This document shows, one piece after another, positions 51,301-59,622 of a stretch of DNA of 64,000 bases. The number at the start of each line of letters is the position of its first letter. The stretch's first letter is position 1. Below the pieces are notes generated by a model. The model was not told the origin of the DNA and made no database searches. It saw only the letters and a program-made list of their open reading frames with translations. The position numbers were made by a program, and so were the translations under genes. The stretch is from Aureisphaera galaxeae (lineage in GTDB: Bacteria > Bacteroidota > Bacteroidia > Flavobacteriales > Flavobacteriaceae): contig NZ_JAQQTF010000010.1 in NCBI RefSeq assembly GCF_028561275.1, positions 1-64,000 on the forward strand. Reading direction: 5' to 3'.

Positions 51301-51747
51301 TTAAAAAGTACGCACACCGAAACGACTTTCCCTTTTCGGAAATTTTAAATTGCTCAACAACATAAGAGCCGCAATAGTGTAGACCCACCATGTCTGACTC
51401 AAATTCAGATAGTAGGTGGTCATGAGCAGGACAATTCCTAAGGTGTAGATGGTAATATTAATCCAGGACTTGTTCTTATAGTGCTTCCAGAGCAAAACCG
51501 CACTTCCCAAAATGAAAATACCAAGAATCACATATTTCCATTCCGAGCGATAGGAAACATTTTCCAATCCCAGAAAACTGAAAAAAGAAGCATAGGCCGC
51601 CCAGCAAATGGGACATTTGGGAAACAAAAAGAACAATACCCCTGTTACGATATTCAGGAGGTTTGTCTTTCTCGTCTTCTTGGGCTTCGATTCATTTTCG
51701 GAACCGCACCCACAATCGCACGCTATGCCTTTTTTCTGTGTGTTCAT
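51301..51747 (-). CDS. Cys-rich membrane protein, 148 aa (MerC-like hydrophobicity)
   Basis: The N-terminal motif ACDCGCGSEN is cysteine-rich and cytosolic, followed by a basic stretch (KPKKTRKTN). About four membrane helices follow, the first containing LFPKCPICWAAYASFFSFLG with a CxxC. This Cys arrangement (CxCxC plus a membrane CxxC) resembles heavy-metal transport or sensing proteins such as MerC, but the match is by eye only. The 54-aa gene follows 21 bases later on the same strand. Confidence 0.7.
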   Translation of the reverse strand: MNTQKKGIACDCGCGSENESKPKKTRKTNLLNIVTGVLFFLFPKCPICWAAYASFFSFLGLENVSYRSEWKYVILGIFILGSAVLLWKHYKNKSWINITIYTLGIVLLMTTYYLNLSQTWWVYTIAALMLLSNLKFPKRESRFGVRTF

Positions 51748-51755
51748 ACTATTAT

Positions 51756-51894
51756 TTAAAAGGATGTTTAACTCGTCAAACTGAGCATGTCGAAGTTTGT
51801 GCTCGACTTTTCTAAACCATCCTTCGACAAGCTCAGGATGACACTCGACAAGCTCAGTTTTACAAATAGTCTAGGTGTTAAACATCCCCTTTTC
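51756..51894. repeat. Nested inverted-repeat element, intergenic
   Basis: GGATGTTTAAC (51762-51772) pairs perfectly with GTTAAACATCC (51877-51887). Inside it, 51778-51793 pairs with 51845-51860 with one mismatch. TCGACAAGCTCAG occurs twice in direct orientation (51824 and 51845). The 'TCCTTCGACAAGCTCAGGATGA' core is a motif seen as a dispersed repeat in many Bacteroidota genomes. Confidence 0.75.
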
Positions 51895-51902
51895 TTTCAT
51901 AC

Positions 51903-53537
51903 TTAGTTATTATTCGGAATGGAATCCTGGTTCCATTGTGCTTTCTGAAGCAGCCAACTAAAGTCTCCAGACAACTGTCCCGAAGTCTGTGGCCCTTTAT
52001 CGTTTACATAGCTATAAATTCCAGCACTGGAGTGACATCCCATACAGCTTTCTGTTCCGTAAATGGTTCTCGGCTCCCCTTTAGCACTCCCATTTTCAAT
52101 AAGATTACCCGCTGCTTGGTTTCCTTTTTGGAAAAAGGTTTCCATCGTCATATTCGTCATTAAAGGAATATTAGGGTCCCCTCCTGGTTTGTTGGTCACC
52201 GATTCTGGCAGGATATAATTGCTGGATAAATTAGGTGCTGGAGGCACGTCCTGATTCAATGGATATTGTGTGTCAATCAATTCATAATACTGCCAAACAC
52301 TTCCTACCGACTTAAAGTACTCTTGCATGGTCTTGTTTATTTGCTCCACGCGAACAGGAATCGGTAGCATACGCATGGCCTGTGTTTTCATCACATTGCT
52401 ACTTGCGTAGTACTTTGCATCCGTACTATCGGTTGTATTTGGAATTTGTGTACGTACCAACCAGTAAGGCCCATGCTCATCTTCTTTGTAGTAGTAGCGC
52501 GAATTATGAGTTACGTCCACATTGGCAGGGCAAATATCACAGTTGGGATCTCGTAAGGTCGGTGGAATAAGCATCGTCTTTCCGTCTTTTTCAATTACAT
52601 TTTGGTCCAGATTATCAACGTGTTCGAAAGTAGACCATACCCATTGCTTTCCGGTTGGGGTTTTCTGGCTGATGTGCATCCCAATCATTCCCAAGGTCTT
52701 TGGAACCAATGTACTATCTGGCCCAATGATGTATCCTTGATCTGTGAAATAACGCTCTTTGAAATCGGTATCTTCCAAAATCTTCCAAGCGAATTTAATC
52801 TCCACTGCTCCTAAAGAATCCTTTTCGTAGTTCCCCTTTGGGAAATTGGCCAAAGAATCGTTCTTTTTCGAATAATTAAGCTGTCCGTTAATGTTGTACA
52901 AGGACTTGCCCATGATGTAATCGAATTCTACTTCGTTCATCAAAACCTCATACACGACCACATTTCCATTCTGATCGAATAATTGCCCAGCAAACGCCTG
53001 ATCTACCTCATCGGCAATATTGAAATTACCCGGGTGTGTAGGCGTGTTAGAAGACAAAATAACTCGTGAATCCGAATCGGAAAGGACATTAGTAGGTAAG
53101 TTTAATCCCGAAGCCGTTCTTGGACTTCCCCAAGGCGCGGGTTTCCTTCCATCGGCACGATATACCTGAAAGGCTTCTTTCCATCCCAACCATGTTGGGG
53201 TTCCGTCGTCCGTGAAGTTAGGCATAGGATTTCCTTCCCCATTTCTAGGCCATTGTATGGCCACAAAAGCTTCCCAACTGTATTTGTTGAACACTTGATT
53301 TAATTGATAGATATCTCCCTGCGACTTCAGTTTCTGCTGAATGGCAGGATCTACATCCACAGGAATGTTATACGTAAAATGAATAGGCTCTGGAACTTTG
53401 TCATAGCCTCCATTAGATGCCGTACCCCCTTTGTCTTCGCAAGCCGCAAAGAGAAATACCGCGAGGGCCGTGCATAAAGCAAAGGCTCCTAGTTTTTTCA
53501 ATAAAGTAATGCCGCTAGATGGCAATAGATGTTTCAT
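51903..53537 (-). CDS. Monohaem cytochrome c-like lipoprotein in the CTQ/tyrosinase operon
   Basis: A 544-aa protein with a lipobox (VFLFAAC, then EDKGG), so probably anchored in the envelope. The only haem-binding CxxCH is CMGCHSSAG at 498-502 near the C-terminus. The preceding 450 residues contain a large unknown domain with NKYSWEAFVAIQWP, WLGWKEAFQVYRADGRKP and PNCDICPANVDVTHNSRYY. No Met follows the CxxCH, so the distal haem ligand must lie elsewhere. It overlaps the LodB-like gene by 23 bases and ends the operon. A role as electron acceptor for the quinoprotein is plausible but unproven. Confidence 0.82.
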   Translation of the reverse strand: MKHLLPSSGITLLKKLGAFALCTALAVFLFAACEDKGGTASNGGYDKVPEPIHFTYNIPVDVDPAIQQKLKSQGDIYQLNQVFNKYSWEAFVAIQWPRNGEGNPMPNFTDDGTPTWLGWKEAFQVYRADGRKPAPWGSPRTASGLNLPTNVLSDSDSRVILSSNTPTHPGNFNIADEVDQAFAGQLFDQNGNVVVYEVLMNEVEFDYIMGKSLYNINGQLNYSKKNDSLANFPKGNYEKDSLGAVEIKFAWKILEDTDFKERYFTDQGYIIGPDSTLVPKTLGMIGMHISQKTPTGKQWVWSTFEHVDNLDQNVIEKDGKTMLIPPTLRDPNCDICPANVDVTHNSRYYYKEDEHGPYWLVRTQIPNTTDSTDAKYYASSNVMKTQAMRMLPIPVRVEQINKTMQEYFKSVGSVWQYYELIDTQYPLNQDVPPAPNLSSNYILPESVTNKPGGDPNIPLMTNMTMETFFQKGNQAAGNLIENGSAKGEPRTIYGTESCMGCHSSAGIYSYVNDKGPQTSGQLSGDFSWLLQKAQWNQDSIPNNN

Positions 53538-54705
53538 GATGGTTTGGTTTATGTAGTTGATTATTTATGGTATCATCTTGCAATACAGAAGCCCTTCTTT
53601 GCCAAAAGGGACTTTCTGGAAATCTTGTTTCTTCGTTGTAGTAGGACGTTCGCTTTTCTGAATAGGACGTCCATTGGGAATGCATAAGTCTTTCGTATTT
53701 CTGAATACCTCCGGATACACCTTTCAATACATCCATGACCGCATACGCACCAAAAAGACCAGAAGAAAGCCCTTTGAACATCCCAAGAGATGACAAAGGA
53801 TCATAGCTCATTACGGCATCCCCAACGGCCAACCAATTACGGCTTGCCATAGGTTCTAGATATTGACTGTGTGCTGCGCCCAAAGCCACACTGCCCAAAG
53901 GCTTGGCTCCAAAGAGGCGCAGACAGGTATGGCGGGTCACGTTTATATGCTCTTCGAATACGATATCTTCTTTCAAATTGTGATTTCTGGCCATATCTGC
54001 ATCTGTCATATACGCTACCAAAAACCGCCCTTTAGAAAGATGGGTACTGTACCACCAGCCCTTCTCATCCGATTCAATCAAAATCCCTTGACTGGTTTTT
54101 GCATGACCTAACGGGAATTCATAAAAGCGAAAGACACCAACCAGATTATCAACCTTGTGTTTCGTCGCTCCCTGAGCGCTCGCAAAGGCTGCTTTTTTCC
54201 CGGTAGCATCAATGATAAATTTTGTTTGAAGGGTCTCTCTATGATCTCCTTTTTGAAGCTGCACTTCCCATCCTTCATCCACTTCCTTAGAACTTTTCAA
54301 ATACGTCTTGAAGGTTATGTCCACCTCTCGTTCTATGGCCTCACGGATCATAAAGTCATCGAAAGCTGCACGATCCAAATTCCAACCGTATCCAAAAGGA
54401 GAGAAAAGGAATTCATTGTGATGCATTTGCGAATTTCCCCAAGCCGCCGAAGTACCGAAGGAATGATCGAAACCTTCTTTTTGGAAGGCGTCCCATACTC
54501 CCAATTCCTGAAGGTATCGGAACGAATGGGCCGAAAGGGATTCCCCAATACGAAGCGCATCCTTGCCGCGCTTAACCCTGGGTTTTCGCTCTACAAGCAA
54601 TACCTTAAGATCTGGCGCATTGTTCTTAAGGGCGATGGCGGCCGAACAGGCTGCAATACCGCCCCCAAGAATCAGGACATCGTATGTGTTATGCTTCAAA
54701 TTCAT
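53515..54705 (-). CDS. LodB-like FAD-dependent maturation protein
   Basis: A 396-aa flavoprotein. The FAD-binding start is VLILGGGIAACSAAIAL, then ERKPR. A later GDAVMSYDPLSSLGMFKGLSSG is the third FAD motif. It resembles the flavin-dependent halogenase/LodB group but lacks the WxWxIP motif of halogenases. LodB and GoxB proteins are needed for the post-translational formation of CTQ in LodA and GoxA. Its place two genes downstream of a LodA-type gene strongly supports that role. It starts within the stop of the 148-aa gene (ATGA overlap) and overlaps the cytochrome gene at its end. Confidence 0.87.
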   Translation of the reverse strand: MNLKHNTYDVLILGGGIAACSAAIALKNNAPDLKVLLVERKPRVKRGKDALRIGESLSAHSFRYLQELGVWDAFQKEGFDHSFGTSAAWGNSQMHHNEFLFSPFGYGWNLDRAAFDDFMIREAIEREVDITFKTYLKSSKEVDEGWEVQLQKGDHRETLQTKFIIDATGKKAAFASAQGATKHKVDNLVGVFRFYEFPLGHAKTSQGILIESDEKGWWYSTHLSKGRFLVAYMTDADMARNHNLKEDIVFEEHINVTRHTCLRLFGAKPLGSVALGAAHSQYLEPMASRNWLAVGDAVMSYDPLSSLGMFKGLSSGLFGAYAVMDVLKGVSGGIQKYERLMHSQWTSYSEKRTSYYNEETRFPESPFWQRRASVLQDDTINNQLHKPNHHETSIAI

Positions 54706-55148
54706 TCTGGGCTATCTTGTTTCACTGCGATCCATTGGGCCACCACTCCAGCCGGAGCGGTAGATTTTCCATTGGGTCCCGTAGGGTGGGGTATCGCGCG
54801 TACGATACTACCTACTAGGGCGGGACGTTGATCCAATCCATTCATCCATTCGGGCACATAGTACCCCAGATAATTGTAGATCCATTCGGCACCGCCTACC
54901 AATCCTTTTCCTTGAAACTGAAGAGTAAATGGATTTCCATACCCAATGGAACCTTTCAATTCCAATTCCCATCCCGGGCCATAGATTTTACCATCTAGGG
55001 TTTGCATGGGTGCTTCATTGATTTGAATGTTCCCACGACCGAATTCCAACGAGTCGAAATCAGCATTGACATCGGGATTGCTTAAAAAACTTCTATAGGT
55101 CCATGTGCCGGTTAATATAGGAGGCACGCCTGTTTGTATATTTTCCAT
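54702..55148 (-). CDS. Unknown 148-aa protein of the CTQ operon
   Basis: A soluble protein with no signal peptide or membrane helix. It begins MENIQTGVPPILTGTWTYRSF and continues with SNPDVNADFDSLEFGRG, GWELELKGSIGYGNPFTLQFQG and GAEWIYNYLGYYVPEW, ending AQWIAVKQDSPE. The pattern of strands with GTWTYRS suggests a lipocalin-like barrel or beta-sandwich. No family is recognised. The 5-base gap to the upstream LodA-like gene and the 4-base overlap with the LodB-like gene imply a tight functional link, perhaps as a small subunit or maturation helper. Confidence 0.78.
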   Translation of the reverse strand: MENIQTGVPPILTGTWTYRSFLSNPDVNADFDSLEFGRGNIQINEAPMQTLDGKIYGPGWELELKGSIGYGNPFTLQFQGKGLVGGAEWIYNYLGYYVPEWMNGLDQRPALVGSIVRAIPHPTGPNGKSTAPAGVVAQWIAVKQDSPE

Positions 55149-55153
55149 AATGA

Positions 55154-57367
55154 TTAGTTGTTATTGGTTTCTTGGGTCGACTTTCCAATAGACTGTCCCA
55201 ATACTCTATCGCCCGGAGTTACAGGATCCCCTAGGGCGTCATTATTACGCTCTTGTTGATAGAAGGCTTTGTGAATTCCTTCGCCTGTAGCCAGTAGAAA
55301 GCCTAAATCCTTCCAAGCTTCAACCATCTGCAAGTCTCCCGCATTATTTGCCGGAATTCCAGAGGCCCAATACACTTGAGGAGAATTAGGCCCTTCGCTC
55401 ACAACAATAGGTCTATGAGCAGGCCACCAAGGAATGTCATAGGCAATATCTTGTTGTGCCGGATCGCCATCGGAATCCAAATAAATGTTGTTCCAACCTC
55501 TGTAGGTTACATCCAAATCCTGAGTAGTACACTCATGGAAATCGGCTTGCCATGGAATCCCAATAAACTTGGTCATATCTCCCGGTTCCATTCCTTCGGC
55601 CAGATTAGGCGCATTAGATCCGTCAATGTCGGCTATGGGTTTCGGGATGCTTAAGGCACCCGCTAAATAGGTCGCATGCTTTATACGATACGGTTCCGAA
55701 TATATGGCCGGATTGTTTACGATCCAGGAGATTTCCCCTCCTGGGCAGAATGCTCCACCCAAGATATTGCTCAGAACCCCACGGTCAATTCCAACACCCG
55801 TTGTCGGGGGATTCGCCCAAGGGTTTTTACAATTCTTATCACCGTCATTCCATTCCTCACATTCGTTCACAAATTTTCCTTTCATCCATTGTTTCAGGAA
55901 AAACAATTGGGTTTCGGTCATGGAAAGGAACTTGTCTGGCGAAACATTGCTCAAAGGATTGTTCCCGCACAACATAGGCATGAGTCGTGGCTTGGCATTG
56001 GTAGGCCAGTCGTCATTTGTAACTACATAGTCATTCCTCTCATCGGTTTGACGCATAATCATATAAATGAACTGTCGCATTCTGAAATACGGATCTTCCC
56101 CGTTCTTCGGAACTTGAGACAGGGCATTCTCGTCTAAATTCCCTCCCGTACCGCGATTGTGCGGATCGGAACCAGCGAAATAGTCGAAATCATAACTATA
56201 TCGGTACGAATCGGGTCGGTGCAGCATGGTCCAGATTTCCTTATAGAATTTTGGATAGTAATCTGGGTTATAATCCGCATCATTGCGCCAAGTTTCCCAC
56301 TCGGCCTCCGTTTGAGGGCTATTGCTTGCTTTATCGTAAGGCGCTACCCCAAATACCTGCGGATCGTAGGCGAACTTCCGTACAAATAGGTCGTACATCT
56401 TTTCATCCATGGTAATCATATCTTGCATTTGTGGTGCATACCGTGGATAGCCCACGACCACCCACGCAGGTACTTGCACGTCCATGGAAGAGTTAATCGT
56501 AACCATTTTCTCTTTCTTCCCGTCGTACTGCTTTTGCTTAAAACTAAATTGTATGGTCGCCGTTACTGGACCATCAGAAATATCGTCGAACCAACCATTG
56601 TTGTTCACGAAATTGGAGATCACCGGAGTTTTTGTAGATCCTGAGTTTCCATTTCCGCCGAGCACAATCAGACGACAGTGCTTGTCTTGCTCATTTACGA
56701 TGAGGCTTCCCAAGGTATCTATGGGATTCGGTTTTATGTCCGATGGTGGAAAGGTCTGCGGATAGGAAACCTTTTGAAATTTACTAGTATCCCGCTTTTT
56801 GGAATCGGTACCGAACTTGGCGAATTCACCGCGACTGTGCTTCAAACTAACGGTAAGCGGGCCTGGATCTATGATCAATTGCCTGCGTAAATCGGGTTGG
56901 GTCACCTCCGGATTCCGAAGGGGATGACTGGGCTCGTACCCGTGCATTCCATTGGTTTCCTGAAACTCGTACCAAGAGGCCTTCTTATTGGCCAAATGTA
57001 CCGTCCAATCGATATCGGTTACTTTCCCTTTTACAATGGTGGGTGCCGTTACCGCGGTTTCATAAATGAAATCATAGGTTCCCCCGATTTTGATCTCTTC
57101 ACCTACTTCGTCCTCTTTATCAGAGTACGCAAATATCTTAAAGCGTGCTGCTTGTTTCTTTATTTTAGAAAGGTCATTACTGTCCTTAAATTGGGAAACC
57201 CGTACCAGATTTCCGTTGGCGTCTACTTTTTCCTGTCCCAATTCGTTACATGCAATGGGTAGCTCACCCAATTGCTCAGGACATAGATAAAAGTCATCCT
57301 CGGTATTTCCCAATCGGGCAAATCCGATACCCGGATGTATTTTGAATGTTGTATATGCTTTGCTCAT
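55154..57367 (-). CDS. LodA/GoxA-type CTQ-dependent oxidase
   Basis: A 737-aa protein close in length to Marinomonas LodA (L-lysine epsilon-oxidase). The family start FKIHPGIGFARLGN is present. CTQ should form between Cys541 (GGAFCPGGE) and Trp606 (GIPWQADFHEC). They are 65 residues apart, the same spacing as Cys516 and Trp581 in LodA. Conserved family phrases DPQVFGVAP-like and PAWVVVGYPRYAP are seen. There is no signal peptide, as in LodA. Such enzymes oxidise primary amines, releasing ammonia and hydrogen peroxide. The substrate is unknown here. The gene starts 20 bases after the tyrosinase stop, with the LodB-like gene downstream. Confidence 0.88.
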   Translation of the reverse strand: MSKAYTTFKIHPGIGFARLGNTEDDFYLCPEQLGELPIACNELGQEKVDANGNLVRVSQFKDSNDLSKIKKQAARFKIFAYSDKEDEVGEEIKIGGTYDFIYETAVTAPTIVKGKVTDIDWTVHLANKKASWYEFQETNGMHGYEPSHPLRNPEVTQPDLRRQLIIDPGPLTVSLKHSRGEFAKFGTDSKKRDTSKFQKVSYPQTFPPSDIKPNPIDTLGSLIVNEQDKHCRLIVLGGNGNSGSTKTPVISNFVNNNGWFDDISDGPVTATIQFSFKQKQYDGKKEKMVTINSSMDVQVPAWVVVGYPRYAPQMQDMITMDEKMYDLFVRKFAYDPQVFGVAPYDKASNSPQTEAEWETWRNDADYNPDYYPKFYKEIWTMLHRPDSYRYSYDFDYFAGSDPHNRGTGGNLDENALSQVPKNGEDPYFRMRQFIYMIMRQTDERNDYVVTNDDWPTNAKPRLMPMLCGNNPLSNVSPDKFLSMTETQLFFLKQWMKGKFVNECEEWNDGDKNCKNPWANPPTTGVGIDRGVLSNILGGAFCPGGEISWIVNNPAIYSEPYRIKHATYLAGALSIPKPIADIDGSNAPNLAEGMEPGDMTKFIGIPWQADFHECTTQDLDVTYRGWNNIYLDSDGDPAQQDIAYDIPWWPAHRPIVVSEGPNSPQVYWASGIPANNAGDLQMVEAWKDLGFLLATGEGIHKAFYQQERNNDALGDPVTPGDRVLGQSIGKSTQETNNN

Positions 57368-57387
57368 TGTCTTGGTCGTTGAAATGG

Positions 57388-59622
57388 TTAGTCTAAAAAG
57401 TTGAGTGAAACGCCTTCTATGAATACCGCGTTGTCTATTGGTTTCCCGTGTATTCCCACGGTCACCAATTGAACCGTTAAGTCTTTGGCTCCATCGTTCA
57501 GTAGTTTCTGAGCCGTTTTCGTGGCATCTATGATGTAGTTACGCGGTTCGTGGTGGTGAATATTTCTGTGATCGTTCAATCGGGTTTTATCCAAAGGCAG
57601 ATTACAATGCCCAGGGCCTCCATAACAGGATCCGTGGAATAAGGAAACTTCTTCCACAAAGTGCTCGTTGCCTTGCGTAGGCGTATCGATATTGGCATTC
57701 GGATCGTTCAAAAATACCCGAATGGACGCATTAGGCAGATTGCCCCGCTGTACACGGTGAATCTTAATTTCCAGTTTTTTGTGATGCTCAAGGGTGCTTT
57801 TGGACACCTTGATCTTTTCACTGTTAAATTTCACCAGTCCGAAATCGGTCGATACTTGATGGTGTACATAGTGACGTACGTATTTGTATCCCAATTTTTT
57901 GATGCTCATGGCATCCCCTACTGTCATACTCCATGGAGCAAGTACTCCATTCAGTTCTTCTGGCTGTCCGTTGTGCAATTCCTGCCATTTAGCCCATATT
58001 CGATCTACGTTAGAATGGTGCGACCAGAACAAAGGATCGAAAGCCGTTACCCGGTTATCGGTCATCCAACCGTACTGCGGATTTTCTTGACTTTGCATAT
58101 CGGGCGTTAGACCCAAATCGGCATAAATCTTTTCCCATTTCTTATTGTTCGCTGGGTAGTTAGGATTGGTCCCTCCAGAGAAGTTATGCATTCCGTTATG
58201 CACTTTTTCCAAAGAACCAAAATGGTGATCGTAGGAAGGTCCTCCCCCGAAGTCACTCCAAGTTTCGAGCGATAACAGGTTTTTAATATCCGCTTTGGTG
58301 GGATAGGTCGTTGGGTTCCCCATGGCACCTGGCCATCGATTAGGGAACCACAGGGCATTGTCCTTGCGAAGCACGTTGTAGACCGTACGCACTTTTTCTG
58401 CCCATGCAGCCTCCCCATTATTATTTATGATTTCGTAAGGTATGCCAGCAGCTTTCAGGAAACGCAATCCACTGTTATAGATGGTTCCCTTTTTCTGAAT
58501 GCTCTCCAATTTGGAAATTTGAGAAGCACTGTACAGACTTTTTCCATTGGCTCCTTTCGCTTCTTTTAGCGTGATCAATCCCTCTGCAGTTAAAAAACAG
58601 CCTACGGCGTCGGGCAATACCCCTAAATCGTATTGGGTATTGTTGAATGTCGTTTTGTTGGCATCGGCATACTCCGACCATGACCAATACGGTATGGTAA
58701 TGCTATCGTCATAATCCTGAAGCTTCTGCTCGAAGAAATACAGGTACAGTCTGTGCCAAGGGCCAAACTGTTCCCAACCGTGCTGACAGGAATTCGTGTG
58801 AATCCTTGCCCAGAAATCGAAACTGCGTTCGTCTTGCCAAAAGTCGTTGTAGGTGTACATACAACTTAGGGCATCGCGATAGGTTTTCAACTCCTCGGGA
58901 GTGAGGTTACTTATCTCTTTCCGAATATGAAGTGCTTTGCTTTTTTTGGTGGTATGATTGGTCTTGGCATCGGATGCTTTATGCAATTTTTCACCATGGG
59001 CCAGGGCCAGCATGTCGTTTCTTACTTCGACCAAGCTTTTGGCTCCTGAATGAGCATCGTCCTCTTCGGCTATAGTAAGTGGGCATCCCGCATCGATCCA
59101 ACCTGCAATCAGTTCTATTTGCTGGGTCGTGGCTTTCTTATCGGTATCCCAAAGAAGGGGTGGAAATATACTTCCATCGAAAGGGTATTGCCCTTTCAAT
59201 CCGATAATAATGGCCGATGCAGCACTTCGTTGATTAGTGGAACCTCCACCACCGCTTCCGCCACCACTTCCACCGGAAGGCCAGCAATCGCCAATAAAGG
59301 TTTCGGTAGGGGGTTGCATAACCGCTGCTACGGCAGGGTTGGTTACTGGGTTTTCATCGTTAGCGGAATCCGCAGCGGGTTTGGCACCGCCTCCACAGCA
59401 ACTACCGCCGTTGGACGTAGCACCGTGGGAACCGCTTCCAGAACTTTCGTTCGGATCGGGAGCTATGAGTCGCTGTCCGTATAGGGACGCATTTAGAAAC
59501 ACCTCGGGATCCAACCAAAAAGCATGCAATCCCTGATAACTGGGAACGGTACTTCCTTGAATCTCATTAAGGGTGTTTTTTACCTGATCGTAGAGGGAAA
59601 CTCTCTTTTTTCTGGCAGACAT
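57388..59622 (-). CDS. Tyrosinase-like type 3 copper protein with an unusual N-terminal extension
   Basis: A 744-aa protein. The dinuclear copper site is complete: CuA has His275, His281 and His290 (FGPWHRLYLYF), with Cys279-x-His281 matching the Cys-His thioether pattern of tyrosinases. CuB has His475 and His479 (HNGMHN) and the DPLFWSHHSNVDRIW motif (His535/536). Residues about 57-130 are an unusual Gly/Ser-rich linker with GSCCGGG. Residues 145-182 (YPFDGSIFPPLLW, IELIAGWIDAGCPL) resemble the C-terminal end of a cytochrome c domain but have no CxxCH. The C-terminal 170 residues are a beta-rich domain. Monophenol or catechol oxidase activity is inferred. It heads the CTQ operon. Confidence 0.9.
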   Translation of the reverse strand: MSARKKRVSLYDQVKNTLNEIQGSTVPSYQGLHAFWLDPEVFLNASLYGQRLIAPDPNESSGSGSHGATSNGGSCCGGGAKPAADSANDENPVTNPAVAAVMQPPTETFIGDCWPSGGSGGGSGGGGSTNQRSAASAIIIGLKGQYPFDGSIFPPLLWDTDKKATTQQIELIAGWIDAGCPLTIAEEDDAHSGAKSLVEVRNDMLALAHGEKLHKASDAKTNHTTKKSKALHIRKEISNLTPEELKTYRDALSCMYTYNDFWQDERSFDFWARIHTNSCQHGWEQFGPWHRLYLYFFEQKLQDYDDSITIPYWSWSEYADANKTTFNNTQYDLGVLPDAVGCFLTAEGLITLKEAKGANGKSLYSASQISKLESIQKKGTIYNSGLRFLKAAGIPYEIINNNGEAAWAEKVRTVYNVLRKDNALWFPNRWPGAMGNPTTYPTKADIKNLLSLETWSDFGGGPSYDHHFGSLEKVHNGMHNFSGGTNPNYPANNKKWEKIYADLGLTPDMQSQENPQYGWMTDNRVTAFDPLFWSHHSNVDRIWAKWQELHNGQPEELNGVLAPWSMTVGDAMSIKKLGYKYVRHYVHHQVSTDFGLVKFNSEKIKVSKSTLEHHKKLEIKIHRVQRGNLPNASIRVFLNDPNANIDTPTQGNEHFVEEVSLFHGSCYGGPGHCNLPLDKTRLNDHRNIHHHEPRNYIIDATKTAQKLLNDGAKDLTVQLVTVGIHGKPIDNAVFIEGVSLNFLD

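Follow-up and report, generated by a model that had tools for sequence, protein, structure and literature searches.

The subject of this analysis is a five-gene block on the minus strand of the window, by which we mean the 64,000-nucleotide stretch formed by positions 1 to 64,000 of contig NZ_JAQQTF010000010.1 of the flavobacterium Aureisphaera galaxeae. The block runs from 59622 to 51903 in the order TYR, LODA, SML, LODB and CYT, and encodes a tyrosinase-like copper protein, a LodA-like quinoprotein with predicted cysteine tryptophylquinone (CTQ) residues, a small conserved protein, a LodB-like flavoprotein and a lipoprotein with one haem c motif. All five open reading frames (ORFs) are intact. 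In that order the genes are separated by 20 bp and 5 bp and then overlap by 4 bp (SML/LODB) and 23 bp (LODB/CYT). A first-pass annotation of this DNA had described five closely packed or overlapping genes, and the ORFs and spacing are as it gave them, with all five on the same strand. The family names that it assigned (tyrosinase-like, LodA-type, LodB-like and CxxCH lipoprotein) likewise agree with the Pfam and NCBIfam matches and motifs given below. It omitted a sixth gene, MerC-like, which is conserved beside part of these operons. The features are as follows.

57388–59622, minus strand: TYR, tyrosinase-like (type-3 copper) protein of 744 amino acids (Pfam PF00264)
55154–57367, minus strand: LODA, LodA-like CTQ quinoprotein of 737 amino acids (LodA_N and LodA_C; alignment to 2ymw)
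55529–55531, minus strand: codon of Cys613 of LODA, the predicted CTQ cysteine (alignment to LodA, and sequence)
55424–55426, minus strand: codon of Trp648 of LODA, the predicted CTQ tryptophan (alignment to LodA, and sequence)
54702–55148, minus strand: SML, small conserved protein of 148 amino acids (no Pfam match; predicted avidin-like beta-barrel)
53515–54705, minus strand: LODB, LodB-like flavin adenine dinucleotide protein of 396 amino acids, presumed CTQ maturase (NCBIfam LodB, E 4.1e-81, below the curated cut-off)
51903–53537, minus strand: CYT, lipoprotein of 544 amino acids with one C-terminal CxxCH (no Pfam entry for the family)
52032–52046, minus strand: CMGCH haem c motif of CYT (sequence and CYT alignment)
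51301–51747, minus strand: MerC-like small membrane protein with the motifs CDCGCG and FPKCPICWAAY (weak MerC match, below cut-off; homologues at relatives' loci)

TYR is assigned by its sequence to the type-3 copper (tyrosinase) family, with a Pfam Tyrosinase match above cut-off (PF00264, E 1.5e-31) and all six histidine ligands of the copper site (H275, H281, H290, H475, H479 and H536); Cys279 lies two residues before H281. The six histidines are kept in all gap-free rows of 71 aligned ORFs, a set in which some genomes are present twice. On evidence of the same kind, LODA belongs to the LodA-like CTQ quinoproteins. Both Pfam domains match above cut-off (LodA_N, E 3.2e-53; LodA_C, E 1.3e-39), a lodB-like gene is close by in the operon, and C613 and W648 align with C516 and W581 of LodA (2ymw, with a 20-residue chain offset allowed for), the residues named as those of CTQ by Campillo-Brocal et al. 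(2015; PMC4417212). C613, W648 and D609 are kept in 117 of 120 aligned LodA rows, the other three rows being gaps. Against the NCBIfam LodA model, an L-lysine 6-oxidase equivalog, LODA scored 304.8 bits (curated cut-off 600), and LODB scored 272.9 bits against NCBIfam LodB (curated cut-off 400). Because both models match below their curated cut-offs, lysine should not be assumed to be the substrate of LODA. CYT has its one CxxCH at C498 to H502 and a lipobox-like N-terminus, FLFAAC, recognized by eye; with this motif in an exported protein, and a cytochrome c assembly gene found in the genome, CYT is predicted to be a c-type cytochrome. In the A. galaxeae genome one copy of CYT was found, LODA and TYR were the sole LodA and tyrosinase found, and there was no match to the multicopper oxidase (MCO) domain PF07731.

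The first-pass annotation had proposed that the tyrosinase, LodA-like, 148-amino-acid and CxxCH genes are linked, and had named adjacency of TYR and LODA in this genome only as the outcome that would speak against it. Neighbourhood comparison bore out the linkage. A contig scan with a LodA alignment of this type as query, narrowed to the top-ranking 80 of 329 candidates, gave 76 loci; L-numbers below are the labels of fetched loci, and phyla were taken from record titles. TYR adjoined LODA in 59 of the 76 loci, so that adjacency is not restricted to A. galaxeae; because the query was biased to this group, the fraction does not hold for LodA loci in general. SML was present in 52 of the 59 and LODB in 55; the seven loci without SML and the four without LODB include contigs that end early. 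The profiles used to call neighbours were partly built from loci later scored with them. Some genomes are present twice (L048/L165, L049/L150, L122/L142, L123/L163 and L124/L149), which inflates residue and CxxCH counts and leaves the counts for L142 to L217 unaffected. The five-gene order recurs at 17 loci, which belong to Aquimarina, Flavobacterium and Lacihabitans and to the genus of A. galaxeae itself, with identities to the window of 53–97% for four of the proteins and 39–78% for LODB. When 82 LodAs were placed in a tree, every one of the 60 tyrosinase-linked rows fell on the same side of a starred branch, together with three rows from cut contigs; the tree was made by a quick method and is unrooted, several of its long branches were flagged, and a piece shorter than 450 amino acids (L212) was excluded. 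The tyrosinase-linked set spans Flavobacteriaceae, Saprospiraceae, Nitrosomonas, Methylococcaceae, Acidobacteriota, Planctomycetota and Rhizobium. The tyrosinase-LodA linkage is real and old.

Within the family and within Flavobacterium, the tyrosinase-LodA type is rare. A family survey, made with one query and less biased, found LodA in 14 of 397 genomes, and besides the window there were 17 LodA loci or pieces, none with tyrosinase and four with CYT. The Flavobacterium survey, likewise less biased and made with one query, found LodA in 19 of 299 genomes; three of 20 loci were of the tyrosinase type, all three with CYT. A further CYT lies about 1.8 kb from LodA in Flavobacterium L138, and the remaining LodA loci of the family and Flavobacterium surveys held no other CYT. 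At the Lacihabitans locus (L152, 15933–18930) a second LodA-LodB pair lies on the opposite strand, directly beside the five-gene operon.

The core of this block has been described before. Campillo-Brocal et al. (2015; PMC4417212) defined group ID LodA operons, of the Bradyrhizobium japonicum USDA6 type, with tyrosinase, lodA-like, small and lodB-like genes plus an MCO; the extra small gene was reported in ten genomes, its product has 138–142 amino acids, and the supplement lists a Bacteroidete member. Three oxidase genes in a row had been noted in Saccharophagus degradans in a 2010 review (PMC2855505). The first-pass annotation knew of no description of tyrosinase and LodA-type genes sharing an operon with a haem c lipoprotein; these two papers show that the tyrosinase-LodA/LodB part of that arrangement was already published, and the haem c part stands, as the word 'cytochrome' occurs zero times in the main text of PMC4417212. 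We found no description of the cytochrome variant in the literature searched, which was mostly that outside subscription journals and supplements. The window operon shares with group ID the tyrosinase, lodA-like, small and lodB-like genes and the CTQ cysteine and tryptophan. Window SML shares 53% identity with its counterpart in Rhizobium L070 and 58% with the one in Methylococcaceae L181 (compared with fetched loci rather than with the paper's own sequences, under a criterion of more than 50%), and window LODA falls in one starred set with that of L070, which has the published layout, in a tree that does without the members named in PMC4417212. Plasmid p4 of Rhizobium ruizarguesonis has the order MCO, TYR, LODA, small gene, LODB. 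The window operon differs in lacking the MCO, in having the haem c lipoprotein and the MerC-like gene instead, and in the 148-amino-acid length of its small protein. It thus appears to be a form of the group ID module that belongs to Bacteroidota, with a known core and a cytochrome that the searches made here did not find described. With lodAB of Marinomonas mediterranea (L-lysine 6-oxidase), the window shares the LodA/LodB pair and the CTQ residues; it differs in that LODA scores below the curated cut-off, and in Marinomonas the tyrosinase and MCO lie outside the lod operon (PMC4417212).

The haem c gene and the MCO gene tend to replace one another. At TYR-LODA loci of Bacteroidota, CYT was present in 19 of 22 and MCO in two, one contig ending after LODA. 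Outside Bacteroidota, 21 of 37 such loci had MCO and five had CYT, with L168 in both counts. The count was then restricted to the 38 loci whose flanks each reach at least 4.5 kb, and took in genes of both strands up to 6.5 kb from LODA; of these loci, 22 had CYT only, 13 had MCO only, three had neither and none had both. The position of CYT varies: it may follow LODB, lie between LODA and LODB (L177) or upstream of MCO (L168), or stand upstream of TYR, where both orientations occur (L188, L217 and L194; L180 and L186). On the tree the CYT label changes four times among the 39 full-flank rows, and six times when cut contigs are included. CYT is rare in the phylum (17 of 375 Bacteroidota genomes), so that its adjacency to the block is not background. 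A test of exclusivity with independent pairs had only four pairs available (p at least 0.25), and the exclusivity, which could therefore reflect ancestry, is suggestive only. CYT is also found with LodA in the absence of tyrosinase. In a second, distant LodA clade of the same family (L061 to L064, Flavobacteriaceae) it is directly upstream of LODA and LODB, and in L213 it likewise accompanies LODA and LODB.

CYT proteins form a family that has no Pfam match in the window protein or in the 19 members scanned. Exactly one CxxCH was present in 53 of 54 CYT ORFs, duplicate genomes included, and C498, C501, H502, H288 and K248 are invariant in 19 of 19 aligned members. By eye, signal-peptide-like starts were seen in most of the 14 CYT and six MCO N-termini inspected. 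An AlphaFold2 model made from 19 sequences had a mean predicted local distance difference test (pLDDT) score of 66, falling below 50 around the haem region; Foldseek gave no useful match and a PDB profile search no credible one. There is a weak likeness to cytochrome P460/c'-beta, with which CYT shares a C-terminal CxxCH followed by D-[FY], and FP-G, K and W-x-W in collinear order. In the full-profile comparison the haem block alone aligned (score 35.1, E 0.00098, probability 21.8%). The middle block by itself scored 22.1 (probability 4.2%) and 30 column shuffles reached at most 14.8; this match proves little, because scores of 11.9 to 23.2 against the P460 profile were also obtained with five families that are not related to it. 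CYT is about three times longer than P460, its scores outside the haem block are near those of unrelated families, and the Pfam cut-off (PF16694) was reached by none of 19 members. Membership in cytochrome P460 was rejected, with the weak resemblance retained.

CYT homologues also occur apart from LodA. In Azospirillum and Bradyrhizobium plasmids (L077 and L080) a single gene separates them from GMC oxidoreductase genes, and in Paracoccus a CYT and a tyrosinase-family gene are one gene apart. This distribution fits best with CYT being a redox partner common to several enzymes, a catalytic haem being the alternative. The gene by the CYT homologue in L077 is annotated as sorbitol dehydrogenase. 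At four loci without LodA, from three Bacteroidota genomes and Paracoccus, CYT homologues directly adjoin members of a family of 606–709 amino acids with the motif GPRGWQDEYCEW and no Pfam match:

L051, 9058–11163: GPRGWQDEYCEW family gene
L053, 4785–6914: GPRGWQDEYCEW family gene
L054, 10791–12611: GPRGWQDEYCEW family gene
L072, 5957–7777: GPRGWQDEYCEW family gene

Of the five proteins of the operon, SML is the best conserved. Against Aquimarina the identities are 86–91% for SML, 73–74% for LODA, 64–65% for TYR, 60–64% for CYT and 43–45% for LODB, and in 20 of 22 loci compared SML is 73–97% identical to the window copy. Neither the window protein nor the 27 family members scanned matched Pfam. 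SML is predicted to be an avidin-like barrel. The AlphaFold2 model has a pLDDT of 88, and avidins and streptavidin make up most of the top 50 Foldseek matches (probability 0.94–1.00, E at least 0.027, template-modelling score up to 0.57 by query and 0.73 by target). The top three by E value (0.017–0.023) are not avidins and include a cathepsin C domain and a polyisoprenoid-binding protein, and no match reached E 0.001. SML homologues were found in 107 plasmid records, mostly of rhizobia. In the four that were opened (L066 to L069; rhizobia and Burkholderia) SML adjoins TYR in three and MCO in three, and no LodA was called. MCO, SML and tyrosinase occur together without LodA on a Sinorhizobium plasmid; the same trio is found in Mesorhizobium AR10, about 5 kb from a divergent LodA_C-like ORF that scores below cut-off. 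Since SML keeps company with copper enzymes on plasmids without a LodA call, it seems to go with these rather than with LodA, and may serve as a caddie or light subunit. The small protein of group ID operons, unexplained in 2015, is now given a predicted fold and a likely partner.

Quinohemoprotein amine dehydrogenase (QHNDH) combines a CTQ enzyme with haem c. The window operon shares this combination, as well as a flavoprotein of a related family (QhpG model, E 3.7e-49, below cut-off). It differs in having LodA domains and a separate mono-haem protein, and no radical SAM protein was seen among the six window proteins scanned. Elsewhere, divergent or split LodA-like genes adjoin a radical SAM protein and a LodB/halogenase-like flavoprotein (L069, 2626–7683; L078, 12729–17104; L128, 14637–19810). 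The hosts are Mesorhizobium AR10, Bradyrhizobium barranii and a genome from the Flavobacterium genus search, and these loci look like a cross of LodA/LodB and the QHNDH maturation scheme.

The reading that we favor, tentatively and with a probability of roughly 40%, is that the operon is a variant of group ID in which an exported mono-haem c protein, CYT, replaces MCO as redox partner, the CTQ of LODA being its likeliest electron donor. In such a scheme LODB would make CTQ in LODA in the cytoplasm, and TYR would be a second oxidizing enzyme, for whose copper loading SML and the MerC-like protein would be the helpers. An export route would take LODA out of the cytoplasm, perhaps in company with TYR and SML, and LODA would convert an amine to an aldehyde and ammonia. 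Outside the cytoplasm CYT would accept electrons one at a time from the module, in the place that MCO would hold in other phyla, and the amine enzyme would thereby not depend on oxygen alone. The sequences themselves show the gene set and its order, the conservation, the intact residues for cofactors and metal, and the alternation of CYT with MCO; the chemistry, the export of LODA, the substrates and the pairing of partners are inferred from these. The suggestion in the first-pass annotation that a cytochrome could turn the oxidase into a dehydrogenase fits the MCO/cytochrome alternation; its other suggestion, that the copper enzyme acts on the product of the quinoprotein, found no direct support. 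No oxidase activity is reported in PMC4417212 for any group ID protein, and cultures of Saccharophagus degradans likewise showed none with lysine. If electrons do reach the cytochrome, LodA-type enzymes would widen from oxidases that make hydrogen peroxide to respiratory dehydrogenases, and the exchange of MCO for cytochrome in an otherwise common operon points directly, and in a way open to testing, to the redox chemistry. A bolder form, which we consider doubtful, is that the system is a novel CTQ amine dehydrogenase in which a LodA-fold donor passes electrons to a dedicated mono-haem c lipoprotein (MCO in other phyla), with tyrosinase and the avidin-like subunit in an extracytoplasmic amine- and phenol-oxidizing complex.

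Several observations weigh against CYT as the electron acceptor of LODA. By eye, LODA, TYR and SML have no evident signal peptide, and contact with exported CYT would thus require the export route invoked above; Marinomonas LodA is extracellular (PMC2855505). The characterized LodA-type enzymes are oxidases that make hydrogen peroxide (PMC4417212). CYT stands next to a third, unrelated protein family where there is no LodA, and its weak resemblance to P460 would suit a catalytic haem no less than a carrier. The small number of independent pairs, the presence of both CYT and MCO on L168, a short contig, and the three long-flank loci with neither also count on this side.

These points bear on the rival explanations. 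LODA might be an ordinary oxidase that makes hydrogen peroxide, with CYT a catalytic haem, peroxidase- or P460-like, that uses or removes the peroxide or acts on the tyrosinase product. The P460 scores of the full profile and of the middle block over its shuffles, and the published descriptions of LodA-type enzymes (PMC4417212), lend this some weight, but unrelated families score as high against the P460 profile as the middle block does, no P460 match reached the Pfam cut-off in 19 members, and with pLDDT below 50 around the haem the openness of the haem site is not to be judged from the model; we consider this explanation somewhat unlikely. That the tyrosinase, and not LodA, is the enzyme served by CYT and MCO, both of which would accept or recycle the electrons of phenol or quinone intermediates on the way to a pigment or to cross-links, would account for the Paracoccus locus with CYT and a tyrosinase-family gene and for the MCO, SML and tyrosinase trios of Sinorhizobium and Mesorhizobium AR10. 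It does not account for CYT beside LodA/LodB without tyrosinase in L061 to L064 and L213, and we hold it to be unlikely.

Two further explanations were considered. Tyrosinase, SML or CYT could be extra CTQ maturation factors beside LodB in this LodA clade, since tyrosinase and SML accompany this one clade and conservation within the operon is lowest for LODB (39–45% identity against Aquimarina and Flavobacterium operons in which SML has 79–91%). LodB, however, is the described CTQ factor, the Marinomonas lod operon does without a tyrosinase (PMC4417212), and SML and tyrosinase are found on plasmids without a LodA call, which makes such a role very improbable. The least probable case is that CYT has no function in the module and is an accidental neighbour or a local inheritance in Bacteroidota. 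Although most CYT loci do lie in one clade of related flavobacteria, the four label changes among 39 full-flank rows, the varied positions of CYT and its 23-bp overlap with LODB in the window argue otherwise.

TYR has two further parts, an extra N-terminal region and a C-terminal CYGGPGHC motif. The C-x-G-x-x-G-H-C pattern is present in 67 of 71 TYR ORFs, the four without it being those of the four loci without a LodA call, and the motif region may be a LodA-specific docking part. The N-terminal region had no Pfam match in eight sequences scanned, and none of the analyses supported seeing in it the relic of a cytochrome that has lost its haem.

The MerC-like protein matches Pfam MerC (PF03203) weakly, at E 0.024 for the window protein and E 0.0012 for a relative in L143 (19.9 of 27.6 bits), both below cut-off. 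Of the stretches fetched, those of 17 of 59 TYR-LODA loci contain a homologue and those of the 17 other loci none, and the protein probably handles a metal, copper being the candidate. Because the Marinomonas tyrosinase is served by a transmembrane copper-transfer protein, PpoB2 (PMC2855505), it is a fair guess by analogy that the MerC-like protein supplies copper to TYR. A DJ-1/PfpI-family gene lies near the operon at 10 of 59 TYR-LODA loci (for example L154, L168 and L199) and also at L070; at a guess, it would fit aldehyde handling.

A defence role for the operon was rejected, as none of the five block proteins matched PADLOC defence-system models at E 0.01. A promoter and terminator scan was discarded because of its counts relative to shuffled sequence (10 versus 15.0 and 12 versus 9.9). 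Between CYT and the MerC-like gene, at 51760–51887, lies a palindromic repeat unit, TTCGACAAGCTCAGNNTGAC, which has 18 matches in the genome at up to two mismatches, against none for a reversed control, and is a dispersed repeat.

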